64,000 nucleotides of DNA from assembly GCF_041549525.1 (NCBI RefSeq), contig NZ_CP157456.1:372001-436000 (forward strand). Reading direction: 5' to 3'. Shown piece by piece: positions 2,558 to 33,930 of the stretch. Origin of the DNA: Paenarthrobacter aurescens. GTDB taxonomy: Bacteria; Actinomycetota; Actinomycetes; Actinomycetales; Micrococcaceae. The notes under the pieces are model-generated. The model did no database searches, had not been told where the DNA came from, and worked only from the letters and a program-made list of their open reading frames with translations. Numbering within the stretch: the first letter of the stretch is position 1; each line of letters starts with the position of its first letter. A program made the translations under genes and the position numbers.

Positions 2558-4399
2558 ATGCCTCGTTTACTGCCCTCTATTGTGGCCACAACTGCGATCC
2601 TTGTTGCGTGTTCCGCGCTCTCTCCGTTCAATGGTCCGGCCCATGCCGCGCCGGACTTGCCAGCCACGATACAAACAGGCAGCAAGCCCCAGGCAGTGGC
2701 AGTTAACGAGAAGACCAACAAGATTTATGTAGCAAATTCCGGTGACAGCTCCATCACGGTCATTGATGGGTCCACAAATAGCACTACGGCTGTGAGTGCC
2801 GGTGCCAGACCATTCGCCCTCGCAGTCAACGCCGTCACGAATAAAACGTACGTGACAAACAACGACGGTAATTCGGTGACTGTGATCGATGGTGCAACAA
2901 ATGCCACCGTCACCGTTCCGGTAGGCACTCAGCCTGGTGACATTGCTGTCAATACCAAGACGAACAAGGTGTACGTGACCCATGCCGGGGCCGGTTTGGT
3001 AACAGTCCTTGATGGTCTCACCCACGCAACCACCACTGTTGCTACCGGCTATATGCCCACGGATGTGGTGGTCAATGATGTGACCAATAAGGTCTACGTT
3101 ACAAACCACTACTCCAACAGTGTGACGGTCATCGACGGACTCTCAAATGGAACCGTTACAGTCCCCACGGGAGAAGGTCCCAGGGACCTCGCGGTTAATG
3201 TTGTTACCAACAAGGTGTACGTACCCAACAGCTACGGCGGATCCTTGACTGTGATCGAGGGCGCCTCAAACACAACGTCAACCATCAGCCTTCCGGTTCC
3301 CCCGTGGTCACTCGCCCTGAATTCAACCACCAATAAGATATTCGCCGCCAACTACCTTGATGTAGGCGCCATTATCGACGGCACGTCTCACTCTGTGGTG
3401 GAAAAGAGTTTCGGCTCTTCAGCGATGGACATGGTTGTCAATGAATCCACCAACCAGCTTTTCGCCGTAAATCTTCCCACGAACACGGTCACGGTGCTGG
3501 ATGGTGTCAGCAACACCACCAAGACGATCCCCGTTGGGGCAGGTCCCATTGCGCTGGCCCTCAACAAGGACACGGGCATTGTCTATGTGGCGAACTCCGA
3601 GAGCAATTCTGTTTCAGCCCTCCACGTTGAGCCCGGACCAGGTACGGAGAAAAATGACTTCAACGGTGATGGTCATTCTGATGTGTTGGCCCGTGATTCT
3701 TCGGGTGCGTTGTGGCTTTACCCGGGTAACGGTACTGGTGGTTGGCTTGCGCGTGTTCAGGTGGGTCAGGGTTGGAATGTGATGACGTCTATTACGGGCC
3801 CGGGTGATTTCAATGGTGATGGGCGTTCGGATGTTCTGGCCCGTGACGCCTCCGGGACGTTGTGGTTGTATCCGGGTAATGGCATGGGTGGTTGGCTTGC
3901 GCGTGTTCAGGTGGGCCTGGGTTGGAATGTGATGACGTCCATTACTGGTCCGGGTGATTTCAATGGTGATGGGCGTTCGGATGTTCTGGCCCGGGACACT
4001 TCCGGGACCCTGTGGTTGTATCCGGGTAATGGCATGGGTGGTTGGCTTGCGCGTGTTCAGGTGGGTCAGGGTTGGAATGTGATGACGTCCATTACTGGTC
4101 CGGGTGATTTCAATGGTGATGGGCGTTCGGATGTTCTGGCCCGGGACACTTCCGGGACCCTGTGGTTGTATCCGGGTAACGGCAGTGGTGGTTGGCTTGC
4201 GCGTGTTCAGGTGGGTCAGGGTTGGAATGTGATGACGTCCATTACTGGTCCGGGTGATTTCAATGGTGATGGGCGTTCGGATGTCCTGGCCCGCGATAAC
4301 TCCGGGACCCTGTGGCTTTACCCGGGTAACGGCAGTGGTGGTTGGCTTGCGCGTGTTCAGGCCGGCCAAGGCTGGAACATCATGACTGCTGTGGTGTAA
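2558..4399 (+). CDS. Secreted YVTN beta-propeller plus FG-GAP/VCBS repeat protein
   Basis: 613 residues in three parts. Residues 1-30 are an export signal ending in AHA-AP; LVAC at residues 15-18 could also act as a lipobox. Residues about 35-360 hold YVTN-type blades of about 42 residues (NKIYVANSGDSSITVIDG and variants), which fold as a beta-propeller. The C-terminal part is five 50-residue FG-GAP/VCBS units starting DFNGDG-x-SDVLARD, a calcium-binding style loop also seen in integrins and lectins. A surface or extracellular binding role is likely; no catalytic motif is visible. It stands alone on its strand, followed by a convergent broken gene. Confidence 0.85.
   Translation: MPRLLPSIVATTAILVACSALSPFNGPAHAAPDLPATIQTGSKPQAVAVNEKTNKIYVANSGDSSITVIDGSTNSTTAVSAGARPFALAVNAVTNKTYVTNNDGNSVTVIDGATNATVTVPVGTQPGDIAVNTKTNKVYVTHAGAGLVTVLDGLTHATTTVATGYMPTDVVVNDVTNKVYVTNHYSNSVTVIDGLSNGTVTVPTGEGPRDLAVNVVTNKVYVPNSYGGSLTVIEGASNTTSTISLPVPPWSLALNSTTNKIFAANYLDVGAIIDGTSHSVVEKSFGSSAMDMVVNESTNQLFAVNLPTNTVTVLDGVSNTTKTIPVGAGPIALALNKDTGIVYVANSESNSVSALHVEPGPGTEKNDFNGDGHSDVLARDSSGALWLYPGNGTGGWLARVQVGQGWNVMTSITGPGDFNGDGRSDVLARDASGTLWLYPGNGMGGWLARVQVGLGWNVMTSITGPGDFNGDGRSDVLARDTSGTLWLYPGNGMGGWLARVQVGQGWNVMTSITGPGDFNGDGRSDVLARDTSGTLWLYPGNGSGGWLARVQVGQGWNVMTSITGPGDFNGDGRSDVLARDNSGTLWLYPGNGSGGWLARVQAGQGWNIMTAVV
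3651..4399 (+). repeat. Five tandem 150-bp in-frame units (FG-GAP region)
   Basis: Units begin at 3651, 3801, 3951, 4101 and 4251, each exactly 150 bp (50 codons). The inner units are nearly identical at the DNA level, including silent positions: the block starting cgggtgatttcaatggtgat recurs at 3801, 3951, 4101 and 4251. The first unit and the end of the last one are more diverged. This is the signature of recent unit duplication or gene conversion and predicts copy-number variation between strains. Confidence 0.95.
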
Positions 4400-11626: not shown

Positions 11627-11770
11627 CAGGCTCAAAATGCGCGCAAGCTGTTCCCACCGCTGACCCATATGGATATGGTGATCACGGGCGGTGCGGCTGA
11701 AGATCGCCCGGGTTGAAATCGGGCGCCGAAACCGGAGCCTGAGTACGCCATTCGATTCTCGGGAGGAAGC

Positions 11771-12112
11771 ATGTCTGATCCAGAGCAGGATCCAAACCAG
11801 CAGGAGGGCCCCGCGGACGGTGGGGCTTCCGGTGTTCCAGGTACTCACGACGGCGGTGCTGACGGTGGTGCCGATGGCGGCGCTGATGGTGGTGCCGAAG
11901 GTCCCGCGGACGGTGGGGCTTCCGGTGTTCCGGGCACTCACGACGGCGGTGCTGACGGTGGTGCCGATGGCGGCGCTGATGGTGGTGCTGAAGGTCCCGC
12001 GGACGGTGGGGCTTCCGGTGTTCCAGGTACTCACGACGGCGGTGCTGACGGTGGTGCCGATGGTGGCGCTGACGGTGGTGCCGATGGCGGCGCCGGACAA
12101 CAAGGCAGCTGA
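11771..12112 (+). CDS. Small Asp/Gly/Ala tandem-repeat protein (BatC-like low complexity)
   Basis: 113 residues. After the leader MSDPEQDPNQQE come three copies of a 31-residue unit beginning GPADGGASGVPGTHDGG and running on through DGGA tetrads, ending GAGQQGS. It has no Cys, no membrane segment and no signal peptide; it is strongly acidic, with one His per unit in the THDGG context. An excellent ribosome binding site (GGGAGGAAG) lies 5 bases before the ATG, which supports real translation. Similar proteins have been labelled BatC in related genomes, without a known function. The stop is two bases before the TTG of a JmjC-type oxygenase gene, so it could be the substrate of that enzyme; this is inference. 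Confidence 0.75.
   Translation: MSDPEQDPNQQEGPADGGASGVPGTHDGGADGGADGGADGGAEGPADGGASGVPGTHDGGADGGADGGADGGAEGPADGGASGVPGTHDGGADGGADGGADGGADGGAGQQGS
11807..12085 (+). repeat. Three tandem 93-bp in-frame units in the Asp/Gly/Ala protein
   Basis: Units start at 11807, 11900 and 11993, each 93 bp (31 codons). The first two are almost identical; the third diverges only at its end. Within each unit the tetrad DGGA recurs, giving a second 12-bp periodicity. The nesting of two periods and near-identical DNA suggests expansion by slippage or unequal exchange. There are no spacers, so this is not a CRISPR array. Confidence 0.92.
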
Positions 12113-12114
12113 GT

Positions 12115-13320
12115 TTGAGCTCTGCCAGCACTGATTTCCAGGACCCGGGCGCAGTGAAGAGCGCCGGGGTCCTGGAAACACGACTGATTGACATTGCACG
12201 GGAGAGGTTTGCCGGCGAGGTCTGGGGGCGCACTGCGCTGCTGAGCCGCGGAGTCAGCGACTTCTCCGATGTGTTCTCTGCCGGCGCGGTTGACGAGCTG
12301 GTTTCGCGCCGCGGTCTGCGCACCCCTTTCCTTCGCGTGGCCAAGGGCGGCTCCACCCTTCCGGAGTCCTCATTCACTTCCCCGGCAGGTGTTGGTGCCA
12401 CCATCCCGGATCAGCTGGACGACACCGCACTGTGGCGCAAATTCGCCGACGGCGCCACCCTCGTCCTGCAGGCACTGCACCGCACGTGGGACCCGGTGGC
12501 GGGTTTCACCAGCCGGCTGAGCTCCGAGCTCGGACATCCTGTGCAGGCCAATGCGTACATCACCCCTCCTCAGAACCGCGGTTTCGACGATCACTACGAT
12601 GTCCACGACGTCTTCGTTCTGCAGATCGAAGGAACCAAGCGCTGGATCATCCACGAGCCTGTGCACGTGGACCCGCTGCGAAGCCAGCCGTGGACAGATC
12701 ACCGCTCCGAGGTAGCCGAGGCAGCCCAAGGCCAGGCCTACATAGACACTGTCCTGGAGCCAGGCGATGTCCTGTACCTGCCCCGTGGTTGGCTGCACGC
12801 CGCCCAGGCGCAAGGTGAAGTCTCCATCCATCTCACGTTGGGAGTGCACAACTGGACCCGGCACGCACTGGCCGAACAGCTCGCGCAGGCCGCGTTGGCA
12901 GCCCTTTGTGAGGACCCCGTGATGCGCGGATCCCTGCCGTTGGGTGTGGATGGGCCTGAGGAGGAACTCGCGGTGATCCGTGAGCGCCTTGCCGCTGCCG
13001 TCCTGCAGGCTGACACCACCTCGGCGTTCCAACGCTCAAGGAGAGGCCAGGCGCGCCCGGCCCCTCTTGGCCCGGTGGCGCAGCTCGCGGCCGTACAGGG
13101 CCTGGGGCCAGGCTCCTTGGTGAGGCTCCGGGATGCCTTGGAAGCCCGGTTGGAGGGCTCGCGCCTGTCCACCCGCGTTGGTTGGCTGGATTTCCCCGCA
13201 ACAGACTTGCCGTCCGTGGAGCGACTGCTGGATGGAGGGGAACACCTTGCAAACGATCTTGGGATTGAACTTGTGGAAAGGCTGTTGCGCGCAGGAGTTC
13301 TCCTCCCCGCCGGGAACTGA
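12115..13320 (+). CDS. JmjC/cupin-type 2-oxoglutarate oxygenase (YcfD/NO66-like)
   Basis: 401 residues. The double-stranded beta-helix core has the iron-binding triad: H160 and D162 in FDDHYDVHDVFVLQ and H228 in GDVLYLPRGWLHAA. The motif QIEGTKRWIIHEP is typical of the ribosomal-oxygenase branch of JmjC enzymes. Those enzymes hydroxylate Arg, His, Asp or Asn in proteins using Fe(II), O2 and 2-oxoglutarate. The TTG start at 12115 lies two bases after the stop of the repeat protein; GTG at 12154 is an alternative. The next gene, a sucrase/ferredoxin-like protein, follows two bases after the stop. The three-gene packing suggests one function, with the repeat protein as a possible substrate. Confidence 0.85.
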   Translation: MSSASTDFQDPGAVKSAGVLETRLIDIARERFAGEVWGRTALLSRGVSDFSDVFSAGAVDELVSRRGLRTPFLRVAKGGSTLPESSFTSPAGVGATIPDQLDDTALWRKFADGATLVLQALHRTWDPVAGFTSRLSSELGHPVQANAYITPPQNRGFDDHYDVHDVFVLQIEGTKRWIIHEPVHVDPLRSQPWTDHRSEVAEAAQGQAYIDTVLEPGDVLYLPRGWLHAAQAQGEVSIHLTLGVHNWTRHALAEQLAQAALAALCEDPVMRGSLPLGVDGPEEELAVIRERLAAAVLQADTTSAFQRSRRGQARPAPLGPVAQLAAVQGLGPGSLVRLRDALEARLEGSRLSTRVGWLDFPATDLPSVERLLDGGEHLANDLGIELVERLLRAGVLLPAGN

Positions 13321-13322
13321 CA

Positions 13323-14264
13323 GTGCCGGGCAGTGACGCGGCTGCCGCCAGGGCGTTTTTCTGCTCCGATGACGCCCGGGTGCGGGGCGACTCCATGGCC
13401 GGAACGGCGTCACCGGGACTGGTGTGGGTCCTTATAGAGCACCGGGGCGGGTGGCCGCCCAGTGGCTTCGACGGCCTTGATCTTGAAAGCAGCACCAAAG
13501 CCCTGGTGTCCTCGGCAGCACGGGCGGCGGGTGCCCGCGTCCTCCTGGTGCGGCGTCCCGGTCCTCGCCCGCGCCATGGTCCCAAACGCTGGGCCGTCCT
13601 TCGCTATCAAAGCTCCGGTGCTTATCAACAGCTCTGGGGCGTGTGGGAGCGGGACGAGGACCTTTCAGGAATTGTTTCAGCGCTGGCATCCCCTGGAGAG
13701 ACGGGCCTTCCGCCGGTCATCCTGATCTGCGCGCATGGCCGGCATGACCCGTGCTGCGCAGTGCGTGGCCGGCCGGTGGGACGTGCCCTGGGCGAGCGTT
13801 GGCCGGAGCTCGTTTGGGAGTGTTCCCATGTGGGCGGTGACAGGTTTGCCGCCAACGCCGTGGTGGTTCCGGACGGCGTGTACTACGGAGGGCTCGACGC
13901 CGGGTCATCCCTCACCACGATCGAGGCCCACCTTGCTGGCCGGGTTCACGCCGAATATCTGCGCGGATATACGGACCTTTCCCCGCTGCAGCAAGCGGCC
14001 ATTGCGGCGGTGCTCGCCCGCTTCGGGCCAGCCGGCAGGCACGATTACCAGGTGACCGAGACCGTGCAGGAGGGCGGGCAGTGGCGCGTCCACGTCACCG
14101 GCAGTCCACCCCACCCGGCGCATATTGATGTGGAATTGAAGACCAACCGCTCAGCTCCGTGCCAGCTCACGTGCCTGGCGCCGTCCGTTGGCTCGGTGAT
14201 GATCTACCAGTCGGCATCCATCCGAAGCAGCGTGCTTCAGCGGGGTTCCGAGTCCTCCGGCTGA
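13323..14264 (+). CDS. Sucrase/ferredoxin-like protein (thioredoxin-like 2Fe-2S)
   Basis: 313 residues with the sucrase/ferredoxin-like family core: ILICAHGRHDPCCAVRGRPVG, in which the Cys residues and the H-x-x-H-D-x-C-C arrangement resemble thioredoxin-like [2Fe-2S] ferredoxins. This is followed by VWECSHVGGDRFAANAVVVPDGVYYGG, also a family signature. The role of the family is not established; electron transfer is plausible. GTG start at 13323, two bases after the oxygenase stop, so the gene is translationally coupled. Its 3' end overlaps a small opposite-strand gene. Confidence 0.85.
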   Translation: MPGSDAAAARAFFCSDDARVRGDSMAGTASPGLVWVLIEHRGGWPPSGFDGLDLESSTKALVSSAARAAGARVLLVRRPGPRPRHGPKRWAVLRYQSSGAYQQLWGVWERDEDLSGIVSALASPGETGLPPVILICAHGRHDPCCAVRGRPVGRALGERWPELVWECSHVGGDRFAANAVVVPDGVYYGGLDAGSSLTTIEAHLAGRVHAEYLRGYTDLSPLQQAAIAAVLARFGPAGRHDYQVTETVQEGGQWRVHVTGSPPHPAHIDVELKTNRSAPCQLTCLAPSVGSVMIYQSASIRSSVLQRGSESSG

Positions 14265-14457: not shown

Positions 14458-14525
14458 TTTGTGACTAACCTGGGTCATGCAGTGCTCCACTAGGCTTGGA
14501 GCATGACTCAGGCAGGGCGGAAGTA

Positions 14526-15449
14526 GTGGCGAAACGCGCTAAGGCGGGCAGGTCCCAGAGGTCGACGGCGGGAGTGGTGGAGGTGCCTGCCGGCACCCGC
14601 ATTGACGGTCCGGCGGCTGGCGTCTACTACATCGATACCGGCGATTGCGAGTTGATCCAGGACCAGGACAACTCCAACGGCTGGCTGCTCAAGATCAACG
14701 GCGTCATGAGCTCCCACATTGATCTCGCGGACCCGCTTCTCCTCGAATTTGAGTACATGCGCTGGATTGCCGCGCTGGTGGAATCCCGATGGCCGCGGGA
14801 ACTGAAGCCCAAACTCCGGGCCCTTCATTTGGGCGGAGGAGCGTGCTCCATGGCACGGTACTTCCATGCCGGATATCCGGAGGCGCGTCAGGTGGTGGTT
14901 GAGCTGGACGGGAAGCTGGCCGACTACGTTCGCGGCTGGTTCGACCTCCCCAAAGCGCCCCTGTTGCGGATCCGTGTGGGTGAGGCCCGGCAGGTTACGG
15001 AGTCGCTTAGCCCGGACAGCCGTGACCTCATTATTCGGGATGTTTTTGCCGGAGCCTTCACGCCACAGGCTTTGACCACGCGGGAGTTCACCGCCCATGC
15101 GGACTCCGTGCTTGCCCCCGATGGCCTGTACATAGTGAACTCCGGGGACGCCCCGGATCTGAAGAACGCCCGGGCCGACGCCGCCACCATCGCGGACACG
15201 TTTGAGCACACCATGATCATTGCCGATCCCGCCATGCTTAAGGGGCGGCGCTACGGCAACATGATCATGGCCGGCAGCCACGCACCTTTCGGCAACGATC
15301 CCACTCTTGCCCGCAGGCTTCTGGGTGGTGGCGTCCCGGCCCACATTTGGGACGATGCCAAGGTGCGTGCTTTCGCCAAAGGAACCCCGGTGCGGCACGA
15401 TCCCCCGGTGGAGACGCCGGGGGAGGGCCCTTCAGCTTCGGCTGAGTGA
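14526..15449 (+). CDS. Spermidine-synthase-like (polyamine aminopropyltransferase fold) protein
   Basis: About 307 residues. The Rossmann core has LRALHLGGGACSMARYF (nucleotide-binding glycine motif), ARQVVVELDGKLADYVRGWF and SRDLIIRDVFAGAFTPQALTT. In true spermidine synthases the last segment reads D-x-x-x-x-D-x-x-D-P; here the catalytic Asp region is replaced by RDVFAGAFTP. This branch is common in actinobacteria and its substrate is not settled. GTG at 14526 is chosen; TTG at 14496 in frame is possible, and both have weak ribosome binding sites. The 3' end overlaps the convergent ABC gene by 18 bp. The candidate iron box upstream suggests iron-dependent expression. Confidence 0.8.
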   Translation: MAKRAKAGRSQRSTAGVVEVPAGTRIDGPAAGVYYIDTGDCELIQDQDNSNGWLLKINGVMSSHIDLADPLLLEFEYMRWIAALVESRWPRELKPKLRALHLGGGACSMARYFHAGYPEARQVVVELDGKLADYVRGWFDLPKAPLLRIRVGEARQVTESLSPDSRDLIIRDVFAGAFTPQALTTREFTAHADSVLAPDGLYIVNSGDAPDLKNARADAATIADTFEHTMIIADPAMLKGRRYGNMIMAGSHAPFGNDPTLARRLLGGGVPAHIWDDAKVRAFAKGTPVRHDPPVETPGEGPSASAE

Positions 15450-31833: not shown

Positions 31834-33930
31834 TTGTTATCTTCATTCCGCGCTACCCGGCGCCGTGTTACTGCTGCCCTGATTGCCGTTGCAGCTGGGG
31901 CTTCTCTGCTCTTCGCTGCTCCAGCCCAGGCCTACGACATTCCCACCTTTGAGGTGCCGCACGCCGCTCAGGCTCCTGTCCCGTTCGTGGAGCGGGCCAC
32001 TGATACTGCCGGCGTTGTTGAGCTGTGGAAGACAGGTGGCCCTGCAACCCGCGCCGCTGCTGCGACCGCGCTGGTGGGTGGCGCCGATGCGCTTCAGGCA
32101 TTCCTCGACGCCGGACAGGACGTCACGCTCGCCGCGGACCGCAAGCAGCTGGTCACCGAGCTGACGACGCGGGGAAGTGCGCATGTTCGCTCAACTGCGC
32201 AAAAGATCCTGGCGGCGAATGACCCCGCGACGATCGATGCGTTCCTTGCTACGGGCTGGGCCGAGACGTGGAAGGGTGACCTCAGAGTCGCTGCTACGTT
32301 CTTTCAGGAGTACGGCAATGTCCATGTTGAACGCGCCGCGGCCGAGAGTCTGGACAAGGGCGATGGGGCTATTGAGAAGTTTGTCCTTGAGGGCTGGCGC
32401 GCCAAGGTCTGGATGACGGACCGCATGGCGGCTTATGCGGTGTTGGCTTCCGAGAATCCTGCAGTCTCTGCCGCTGCGGAGGCCGCGCTGAAAACCGAAA
32501 ACGGGGATGTGGTGGCCGATTTCCTTCGCTACGGCCAGTTTGTGGTTGCCGGTCACGACGCTGAGTTGAGGACAGTGTCCGGGCTGCTCCAGCAGGTCAA
32601 GGCCGATGTCGCAGCCAACCCCAACGGCACCGCAGCTGTTGCTGATCGCGCGAAGGCCGCCATAGAGAAAGCCAAAAATGCGGCATCAGCTGCGAGGGAA
32701 GCAGACACCGCCAGATTGATGGCCGATTGGAAATTCCAGTCCGCGCAGGCACTCCCACGTGCTGTTATCGACGGCGCAAGCATGATCACTGAGAAGCCAC
32801 TACGGGAAGCCTTTGCCAAGGCAGCCAAAGAAGTGCCCGGTCTACTCGCAACCCTGACGGCCCCCGGTGCCGACCTCAACACCCTGATCAACGAAGCACG
32901 CCAAGCCACCTTGGACCTTGGGCTGGTAGGTACACCGGAGGTTCGGAAAGCCGCGGAGGCCGCGCTGCTGGGTGGCGACGCCGCGATCAAGGACTTCATC
33001 ACCGTCGGGCACGATGCTGCAGAAACGTTGGATGGCACCGTCATGCTCAACGAGAGGCAGCGCGTTGCCCAGCTCCACGCTACGGGCGGCGAATACGTTC
33101 GCAAGGCGGCCTCGATAGCCGGAAAGTCCTGGAGTCACCCGGATACCCGCTACTTCCTTGAGTACGGATTGGCTCAGGCGCAGGAGCTCGACAACCGCAT
33201 CCTCGCCTACCAGAAGCTGGACGATGCAGATCTGGAACTGCGGGTTGCCGCCAATATAGCCCTGGAAGGTAGCCGGGCAGACGCGCAAGCATTCGCTACG
33301 GTCTGGCAGTTTGCAGCCGCCGATCGAGACGCGGCAACCACTGCCCACGTTGCCTCTATCGACGCCATGATCGCCGAGCTTGTTGGGCTTGCAGACACAG
33401 CAGCCGTCGACGCCGGTAAGGCGGCCGACGCTGCCAAGGCCGCGGAAGAGGCACGCCAAGCGGAAGAGGCACGCCAAGCCGAAGCCGCACGCCAAGCGGA
33501 AGCCGCCGCGGAAGCTGCACGCCAGGCCGAAGCTGCCGCGGCCGCTGCTGGTGGACAGCCCGGCCAGGCTGGAGCCGGACAGGTTGATGTTTCACAGCAC
33601 TCCGGTGCCGGAGCAGCCCCAGTGATCGTTCCTTGGCCCCGCGACTACGCTCCCGCCGTCGGACTTGCTGAAACAGGTACCCCGGCCGAGGCGGCCGCAA
33701 CACCTGCCGCCACTCCGTCGCCCGCGCCGAGCATTTCGGTGCCGCCGGCCGCTTCAGCTGCCAAGGATTCCGCGTCGGTTGATTCCCAGTCCCAAGAGGC
33801 GGCCACCCCGCTGGCCGCTTCCTCTGCGGGGATGAGCGGATGGACTATTGGGCTGATCGTGGCGCTGGTCCTGGCTGCGGCGGGAGCCATTACGTTCCTG
33901 CTTCGGCGTAAGGGCGCAGCGTCAGCGTGA
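31834..33930 (+). CDS. Surface-anchored ALF-repeat protein
   Basis: 698 residues. A signal peptide (VTAALIAVAAGASLLFAAPAQA) is followed by repeated segments of the short ALF type, e.g. RAAAATALVGGADALQAFLDAG, HVRSTAQKILAANDPATIDAFLATG and VRKAAEAALLGGDAAIKDFI, quoted in part. Then comes an alanine/glutamate-rich helical stretch built on EARQAE and ARQAEAA. A Pro/Ala/Ser spacer follows, then one C-terminal membrane helix ending LLRRKGAASA. The layout is a secreted stalk anchored in the membrane. ALF repeats are common in actinobacterial surface proteins; no enzymatic role is known. The TTG start at 31834 has GGGGGA four bases ahead. Confidence 0.85.
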   Translation: MLSSFRATRRRVTAALIAVAAGASLLFAAPAQAYDIPTFEVPHAAQAPVPFVERATDTAGVVELWKTGGPATRAAAATALVGGADALQAFLDAGQDVTLAADRKQLVTELTTRGSAHVRSTAQKILAANDPATIDAFLATGWAETWKGDLRVAATFFQEYGNVHVERAAAESLDKGDGAIEKFVLEGWRAKVWMTDRMAAYAVLASENPAVSAAAEAALKTENGDVVADFLRYGQFVVAGHDAELRTVSGLLQQVKADVAANPNGTAAVADRAKAAIEKAKNAASAAREADTARLMADWKFQSAQALPRAVIDGASMITEKPLREAFAKAAKEVPGLLATLTAPGADLNTLINEARQATLDLGLVGTPEVRKAAEAALLGGDAAIKDFITVGHDAAETLDGTVMLNERQRVAQLHATGGEYVRKAASIAGKSWSHPDTRYFLEYGLAQAQELDNRILAYQKLDDADLELRVAANIALEGSRADAQAFATVWQFAAADRDAATTAHVASIDAMIAELVGLADTAAVDAGKAADAAKAAEEARQAEEARQAEAARQAEAAAEAARQAEAAAAAAGGQPGQAGAGQVDVSQHSGAGAAPVIVPWPRDYAPAVGLAETGTPAEAAATPAATPSPAPSISVPPAASAAKDSASVDSQSQEAATPLAASSAGMSGWTIGLIVALVLAAAGAITFLLRRKGAASA

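Follow-up and report, generated by a model that had tools for sequence, protein, structure and literature searches.

A window of 64,000 nucleotides from Paenarthrobacter aurescens (contig NZ_CP157456.1, positions 372,001 to 436,000) contains, at positions 11771-14264, a compact cassette present in many actinobacteria in which a short Asp-rich repeat peptide is encoded together with a JmjC oxygenase of its own and an iron-sulfur (Fe-S) protein. Such a gene set suggests a system, so far undescribed, for modification of the peptide by the oxygenase, probably at its many Asp residues. The reading that we favor, with a probability of roughly 0.6, is a cassette like those of ribosomally synthesized and posttranslationally modified peptides (RiPPs), in which a JmjC enzyme of the ribosomal-oxygenase type (RIOX) hydroxylates Asp at many sites of a dedicated repeat peptide. 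This reading builds on gene pairing, coinheritance, a conserved active site, a predicted fold, and the Asp-rich character of the peptide throughout, from which we infer, with decreasing confidence, catalysis on the peptide, the target residue, the electron role of the Fe-S protein, and metal binding.

The locus lies within a single 4.36-Mb contig. Its three open reading frames (ORFs) share one strand with gaps of 2 and 2 bases, in agreement with the original prediction of three tightly packed genes:

11761-11770, + strand: ribosome-binding site (RBS) gggaggaagc before the ATG, conserved in relatives
11771-12112, + strand: Asp/Gly-rich tandem-repeat peptide gene, 113 aa, ATG start; proposed substrate
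11810-12084, + strand: 93-bp tandem repeat within the peptide gene, 3.0 copies, 95% matches
12115-13320, + strand: JmjC_2 Fe(II)/2-oxoglutarate (2OG) oxygenase gene, 401 aa, TTG start (PF08007, E 5.3e-29)
13323-14264, + strand: Suc_Fer-like gene, 313 aa, GTG start (PF06999, E 1.9e-14)

The whole genome has one JmjC_2 match and one Suc_Fer-like match, both at this locus. At E 0.1, NCBIfam offers no model for any of the three proteins.

Gene Pairing and Coinheritance

A JmjC match was found in 32 of 150 genomes of the genus, 28 of them close (the window's own and 27 at 80-89% identity). All 28 close loci have the repeat peptide directly upstream of the JmjC gene with conserved RBS and start, and separate searches with the peptide and with Suc_Fer recovered exactly the same 28 genomes and none of the other 122. 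The four genomes with a distant JmjC only (G011, G055, G069, and G079) have neither peptide nor Suc_Fer. The wider survey covered family, order, and class level (25 best new loci) plus named genomes, with relatives in Arthrobacter, Pseudarthrobacter, Paenarthrobacter (including P. aurescens TC1), Kocuria, Streptomyces, Rhodococcus, Flexivirga, Brachybacterium, and Nakamurella.

Peptide genes were sought blind as ORFs with an RBS-like start and a length of 40 aa or more, at least 10% Asp and at least 62% G/A/S/D/T/P/E, whose end lay between -350 and +90 relative to the start of the JmjC gene. A stricter Asp cutoff of 14% gave 159/217 loci and missed canonical peptides with longer leaders; it was relaxed to 10% after this result was seen. 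Such an ORF was then found at 28/30, 17/20, 53/63, 77/79, and 23/25 loci of five locus sets; these overlap, as strains and genes recur, and totals of 217, 205, and 201 are of loci, not independent genomes. Random positions, drawn from the window only, gave 0/1166 at the 10% cutoff and 0/1956 at 14%, and other predicted genes of the fetched flanks gave 13/605, with no DGGA repeats in any of the 12 inspected. The 19 misses comprise 12 loci with a distant JmjC, 2 at contig ends with a visible peptide, 4 with a peptide falling outside the thresholds, and 1 true exception (L204). When cassette-type loci are taken as all examined loci minus the 12 with a distant JmjC (tblastn bits 55-115; L030 and L208 are one gene, which leaves 11 distinct genes), a boundary drawn after seeing the result, an Asp-rich ORF stands beside the oxygenase in 204/205. 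One truncated match at a contig end (L051) has the peptide, and L133, L219, and L226 (no upstream sequence) and L052-L054 (no usable match) were left out of the survey.

The check proposed with the original prediction, whether relatives of the oxygenase mostly lack a repeat gene nearby, therefore came out in its favor. Its idea that the repeat protein is the substrate of the oxygenase, with the Fe-S protein as a functional partner, is partly supported by this pairing and by the presence or absence of the three genes together in the genus, the substrate role itself being argued from sequence; the oxygenase very probably acts on the peptide.

When proteins predicted in the flanks (up to 6-7 kb) of 112 loci were clustered, the oxygenase (108 loci) and Suc_Fer (84 loci, an undercount owing to crude gene calling) were the only general clusters. 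After them came the repeat read antisense (14 loci) and groups reflecting local synteny (at most 9 loci). A spermidine-synthase-like gene lies downstream of the cassette in the window (14496-15449; NCBIfam MFS_SpdSyn, E 1e-20). As it is near the cassette in 9/30 Arthrobacter/Kocuria loci only, we regard it as local synteny.

The Repeat Peptide and Its Diversity

The window peptide consists of a leader (MSDPEQDPNQQEG), three units (PADGGASGVPGTHDGGADGGADGGADGGAEG), of which the third differs in its last residues, and a C-terminal tail. It has no Cys, 18 D and 4 E, and a net charge of -22, so that ORF, composition, and 93-bp repeats bear out the acidic, Cys-free, three-unit peptide of 113 residues read from the sequence at the outset. 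When each unit is compared with the other two, codon differences over the three pairs total 12 synonymous and 2 nonsynonymous. The RBS and N-terminus are kept in 28/28 close orthologues (the window's own included), and at 78 named loci the third codon positions of the ADGGA motif vary (2 Asp, 4 Gly, and 4 Ala codons used), the protein motif being fixed by the search. Conservation of RBS, start, and N-terminus, together with third positions that vary under a constant motif, shows the repeat ORF to be a real gene, and an artefact or antisense reading was rejected. The N-terminus is hydrophilic, with no signal peptide seen by eye, and no conserved transporter is nearby; the product is therefore probably cytosolic.

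Repeat number is quick to change while the genes stay together, since peptide length is 74-117 aa among the 28 close orthologues and reaches 206 aa, the longest seen, in a named Arthrobacter (L088). N-termini are alike inside a lineage (PEQDPNQQEGP in some, SDDDITTT elsewhere) and the repeats vary; any division into leader and core is tentative. The canonical unit in Streptomyces is EGPADGGAAGTPGVHDGGADGGA and that of deeper lineages is GEGPADGGANPxGHDGGADGGA, while diverged enzymes pair with two other repeat types, GGDADSGDSDSTQVDPSGSDPAGVDP after an SDDDITTT leader and DADADST (L201). Peptide types follow enzyme clades, needing 6 changes on the enzyme tree (minimum possible 4; shuffled mean 25.2; 0/200 shuffles as low). 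The DSD/QVDP type forms a single clade (support 100). The tree holds 116/186 sequences from a quick search without bootstrap, with distant JmjC rows on long branches. The repeats have thus diverged in step with their enzymes, and Asp is what all of them share.

All 173 distinct peptides, which come from 199 loci, contain Asp, Gly, and Ala; Cys, Trp, and Tyr are almost lacking. Of the tetrads that match [AG]x[GSA][GSA]A, 1679/1719 have Asp as x. His is absent from 20/173, including Brachybacterium and the DSD/QVDP and DADADST types; one of these peptides (L196) is partly masked, and an initial count of 22 fell to 20 because the blind search sometimes picked an internal start, with a His upstream in L193 and L218. 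One peptide found by the blind search with an apparently broken frame (L155) was left out of the composition counts.

The Oxygenase and the Probable Target Residue

The predicted structure of the oxygenase has the RIOX layout (NO66/MINA53/YcfD) of a JmjC domain, a helical dimerization region, and a C-terminal winged helix, the model ending in strands followed by helices. The closest solved structures are NO66 and MINA53. The JmjC iron site first proposed as H160-x-D162...H228 holds, these residues being invariant in 38/38 rows of alignment A2, as is K175, which aligns with NO66 Lys355. Net charge has a median of -12 in the enzyme and 0 in the winged helix (-3 in the window's enzyme). Electrostatic docking of the kind attributed to RiPP recognition elements (RREs) gains no support from charge, the enzyme being acidic and the winged helix not basic. 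The winged-helix region is itself predicted, and the 38 members show only JmjC/cupin families in Pfam.

In the favored reading the repeat peptide would be made ribosomally and stay in the cytosol, where the oxygenase would use Fe(II), O2, and 2OG to hydroxylate Asp of xDGG/ADGG/ADSG motifs. The product would be a cytosolic poly-(beta-hydroxyaspartyl) peptide, plausibly chelating a metal such as iron or calcium, although binding of metal by the product is a doubtful part of the scheme.

The main competitor keeps the pairing and has the His of xHDGG modified by an NO66-like histidyl hydroxylase, with Asp serving solubility, recognition, or metal binding. NO66 and MINA53 as nearest solved relatives fit this account, as do N146 and Y148, which are invariant in A2 and which we take to align with NO66 Asn326 and Tyr328, and His precedes DGGADG 366 times in the distinct peptides. 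Yet enzymes paired with the 20 His-free peptides retain the pocket residues (rows L159, L192, L201, and others), and an invariant Gly243 stands where we assume NO66 to have its third His-binding residue, Ser421. The original prediction had left the target as Asp or His; because of the His-free peptides Asp is favored and is probably the modified residue, and a His target is improbable.

The Suc_Fer-Like Protein

Residues 130-216 of the Suc_Fer-like protein are predicted to adopt a thioredoxin-like [2Fe-2S] ferredoxin fold, consistent with the family to which it had been assigned at first reading; the VIA-align match list covered mainly residues 103-227. Candidate cluster residues are C136-x8-C145 and H169-x3-D173. 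The CX8C motif and first His are invariant in the 25 rows of alignment A3, and position 173, the putative fourth ligand, is Asp in 24/25 rows and Cys in L205.

The protein would serve the oxygenase, for example by re-reducing iron oxidized in uncoupled turnover, or would join a redox step. Ascorbate has the same iron-re-reducing role for animal repeat-protein hydroxylases. We propose a reductase function tentatively, as somewhat less than an even chance. The fullest form of the scheme, in which a RIOX enzyme kept active by a Cys/Cys/His/Asp-ligated [2Fe-2S] protein hydroxylates Asp along a repeat chain of variable length and so yields a poly-hydroxyaspartyl polymer that stays in the cytosol and serves metal buffering or sensing, widespread in actinobacteria, is speculative and on balance unlikely.

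The tie of Suc_Fer to the system, though simple hydroxylation requires no ferredoxin, also suits a second alternative, that the oxygenase carries out another oxidation on the repeats (desaturation, a crosslink, or a backbone change) with Suc_Fer joining in the redox chemistry. 2OG enzymes in RiPP pathways go beyond hydroxylation, a study cited in PMC12710340 reporting macrocyclization by such an enzyme; however, the RIOX-family enzymes described in the available part of PMC6182338 are hydroxylases. We give this alternative a small chance, slightly below that of a His target. Least probable is that the peptide stays unmodified as an intracellular acidic metal buffer or oxygenase regulator, and that the enzyme really acts on a ribosomal protein, as YcfD and NO66 do: the RIOX architecture would allow it and Asp-rich repeats could bind cations unaided, but all-or-none inheritance with the peptide (28/150 congeners) is unlike a universal ribosomal substrate and peptide type tracks enzyme clade.

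Several observations weigh against Asp hydroxylation by a dedicated cassette. Among enzymes of solved structure, the nearest are histidyl hydroxylases acting on ribosomal proteins, and His is present in 153/173 distinct peptides. The presence of Asp in every peptide is partly built in, as the searches asked for Asp-rich ORFs. With an acidic enzyme and a peptide of -22, charge does not favor binding unless a cation bridges the two, and 2OG oxygenases need no ferredoxin per turnover. Within the clustered flanks no conserved protease or transporter/exporter was found, nor a conserved regulator, the first two being lacks that count here. There are also exceptions among the loci. L204 (genome G783) is the sole examined cassette-type oxygenase without adjacent peptide or Suc_Fer, its genome having a Suc_Fer gene elsewhere. 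Five loci in three genomes of one genus (L080; L209 = L251; L212 = L246) have a nonrepetitive Asp-rich ORF and no adjacent Suc_Fer. L247 (G941) has oxygenase and peptide in a genome that gave no Suc_Fer match at any position; this organism may do without the Fe-S partner or have a substitute for it.

Relation to Known Systems

The window enzyme shares with NO66, MINA53, and YcfD the HxD...H triad, the 2OG-binding Lys, and the domain architecture. It differs from them in being encoded with a dedicated repeat peptide, usually with Suc_Fer, and in being patchily inherited, which points to a nonribosomal substrate. The accepted substrates of JmjC ribosomal oxygenases are ribosomal proteins, and what their winged helix is for is described as unclear (PMC6182338, available in part, as are the other sources cited below).

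With RiPP pathways the cassette has in common a short precursor gene that adjoins a modifying enzyme and is inherited with it. JmjC/cupin hydroxylases occur in such pathways, as in biphenomycin BpmG and the cupin-like PbsQ (PMC12257519), and in biphenomycin-type RiPPs, as here, a hydroxylase of this type shares a locus with a ribosomal peptide. Unlike them, as far as the available text goes, the cassette has a low-complexity repeat substrate and no conserved enzyme, protease, or transporter beyond Suc_Fer. RRE-like domains have been described on PF08007 proteins of fish and algae, and the JmjC proteins of bacteria most similar to these (~30% identity) are noted to occur in "RiPP-like genomic contexts" (PMC12710340); the available part of that account names no peptide, repeat, or Suc_Fer protein. 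Nitrilobacillins resemble the proposed product in having 3-hydroxyaspartate in a ribosomal peptide, but are made by a different enzyme class, a multinuclear nonheme iron-dependent oxidative enzyme (MNIO), at a single Asp that is then further tailored (PMC13060819). Apd1 and Aim32 (PMC8482512, PMC11126956) share with the Suc_Fer-like protein the thioredoxin-like ferredoxin fold, CX8C (C136, C145), and His169, whereas the second His of their CX8CXnHX3H motif is replaced by the Asp, or in L205 the Cys, at position 173.

No published description of the cassette was found in the literature searched, much of it available in part and most subscription journals being outside its coverage, and the strings DGGADGG, GPADGGA, and HDGGADG had no match there. 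JmjC hydroxylases and Asp beta-hydroxylation in RiPPs are already known from these sources; new is that, in a RiPP-like setting, a RIOX-type enzyme comes with a proposed Asp-repeat substrate and with an Fe-S protein.

Other Features of the Window

Two features 5' of the peptide gene were noted by eye, both similar among Arthrobacter relatives:

11651-11679, + strand: promoter-like TTCCCA-17-TATGGT; a consensus scan gave no call
11685-11710: leader hairpin cGGGCGGU...aUCGCCCg

Promoter and terminator scans of the locus were uninformative, and a leader RNA element was rejected, the hairpin fold being no more stable than shuffles (z -0.76). Phage defense was rejected, with no PADLOC match at E 0.01, as was viral mobility, two peptide patterns scanned against viral contigs giving no relative. 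Plasmid mobility was also rejected, as the plasmid matches are distant JmjC, all below 60% identity. Distant JmjC_2 "cupin" genes occur on 70 Streptomyces plasmid records, for example NZ_CP011665.1 (~24-39% identity among the matches listed).

Elsewhere, window positions 3655-4361 hold a 150-bp tandem repeat (4.7 copies, 92% matches) whose consensus reads, by eye, DFNGDGRSDVLARDTSGTLWLYPGNG in one frame and which we take to resemble FG-GAP/VCBS repeats. At 33439-33541 are 18-bp tandem repeats (GCGGAAGAGGCACGCCAA), one frame of which would give an Ala/Glu/Arg/Gln-rich stretch.

Significance

RIOX-architecture enzymes thus occur in many actinobacterial genera with a genetically linked, apparently nonribosomal substrate. 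With such a linked substrate, one can test directly how the substrate is chosen, what the winged helix does, and whether an Fe-S partner is needed. If the poly-hydroxyaspartyl reading is true, the RIOX winged helix can dock a dedicated peptide substrate.
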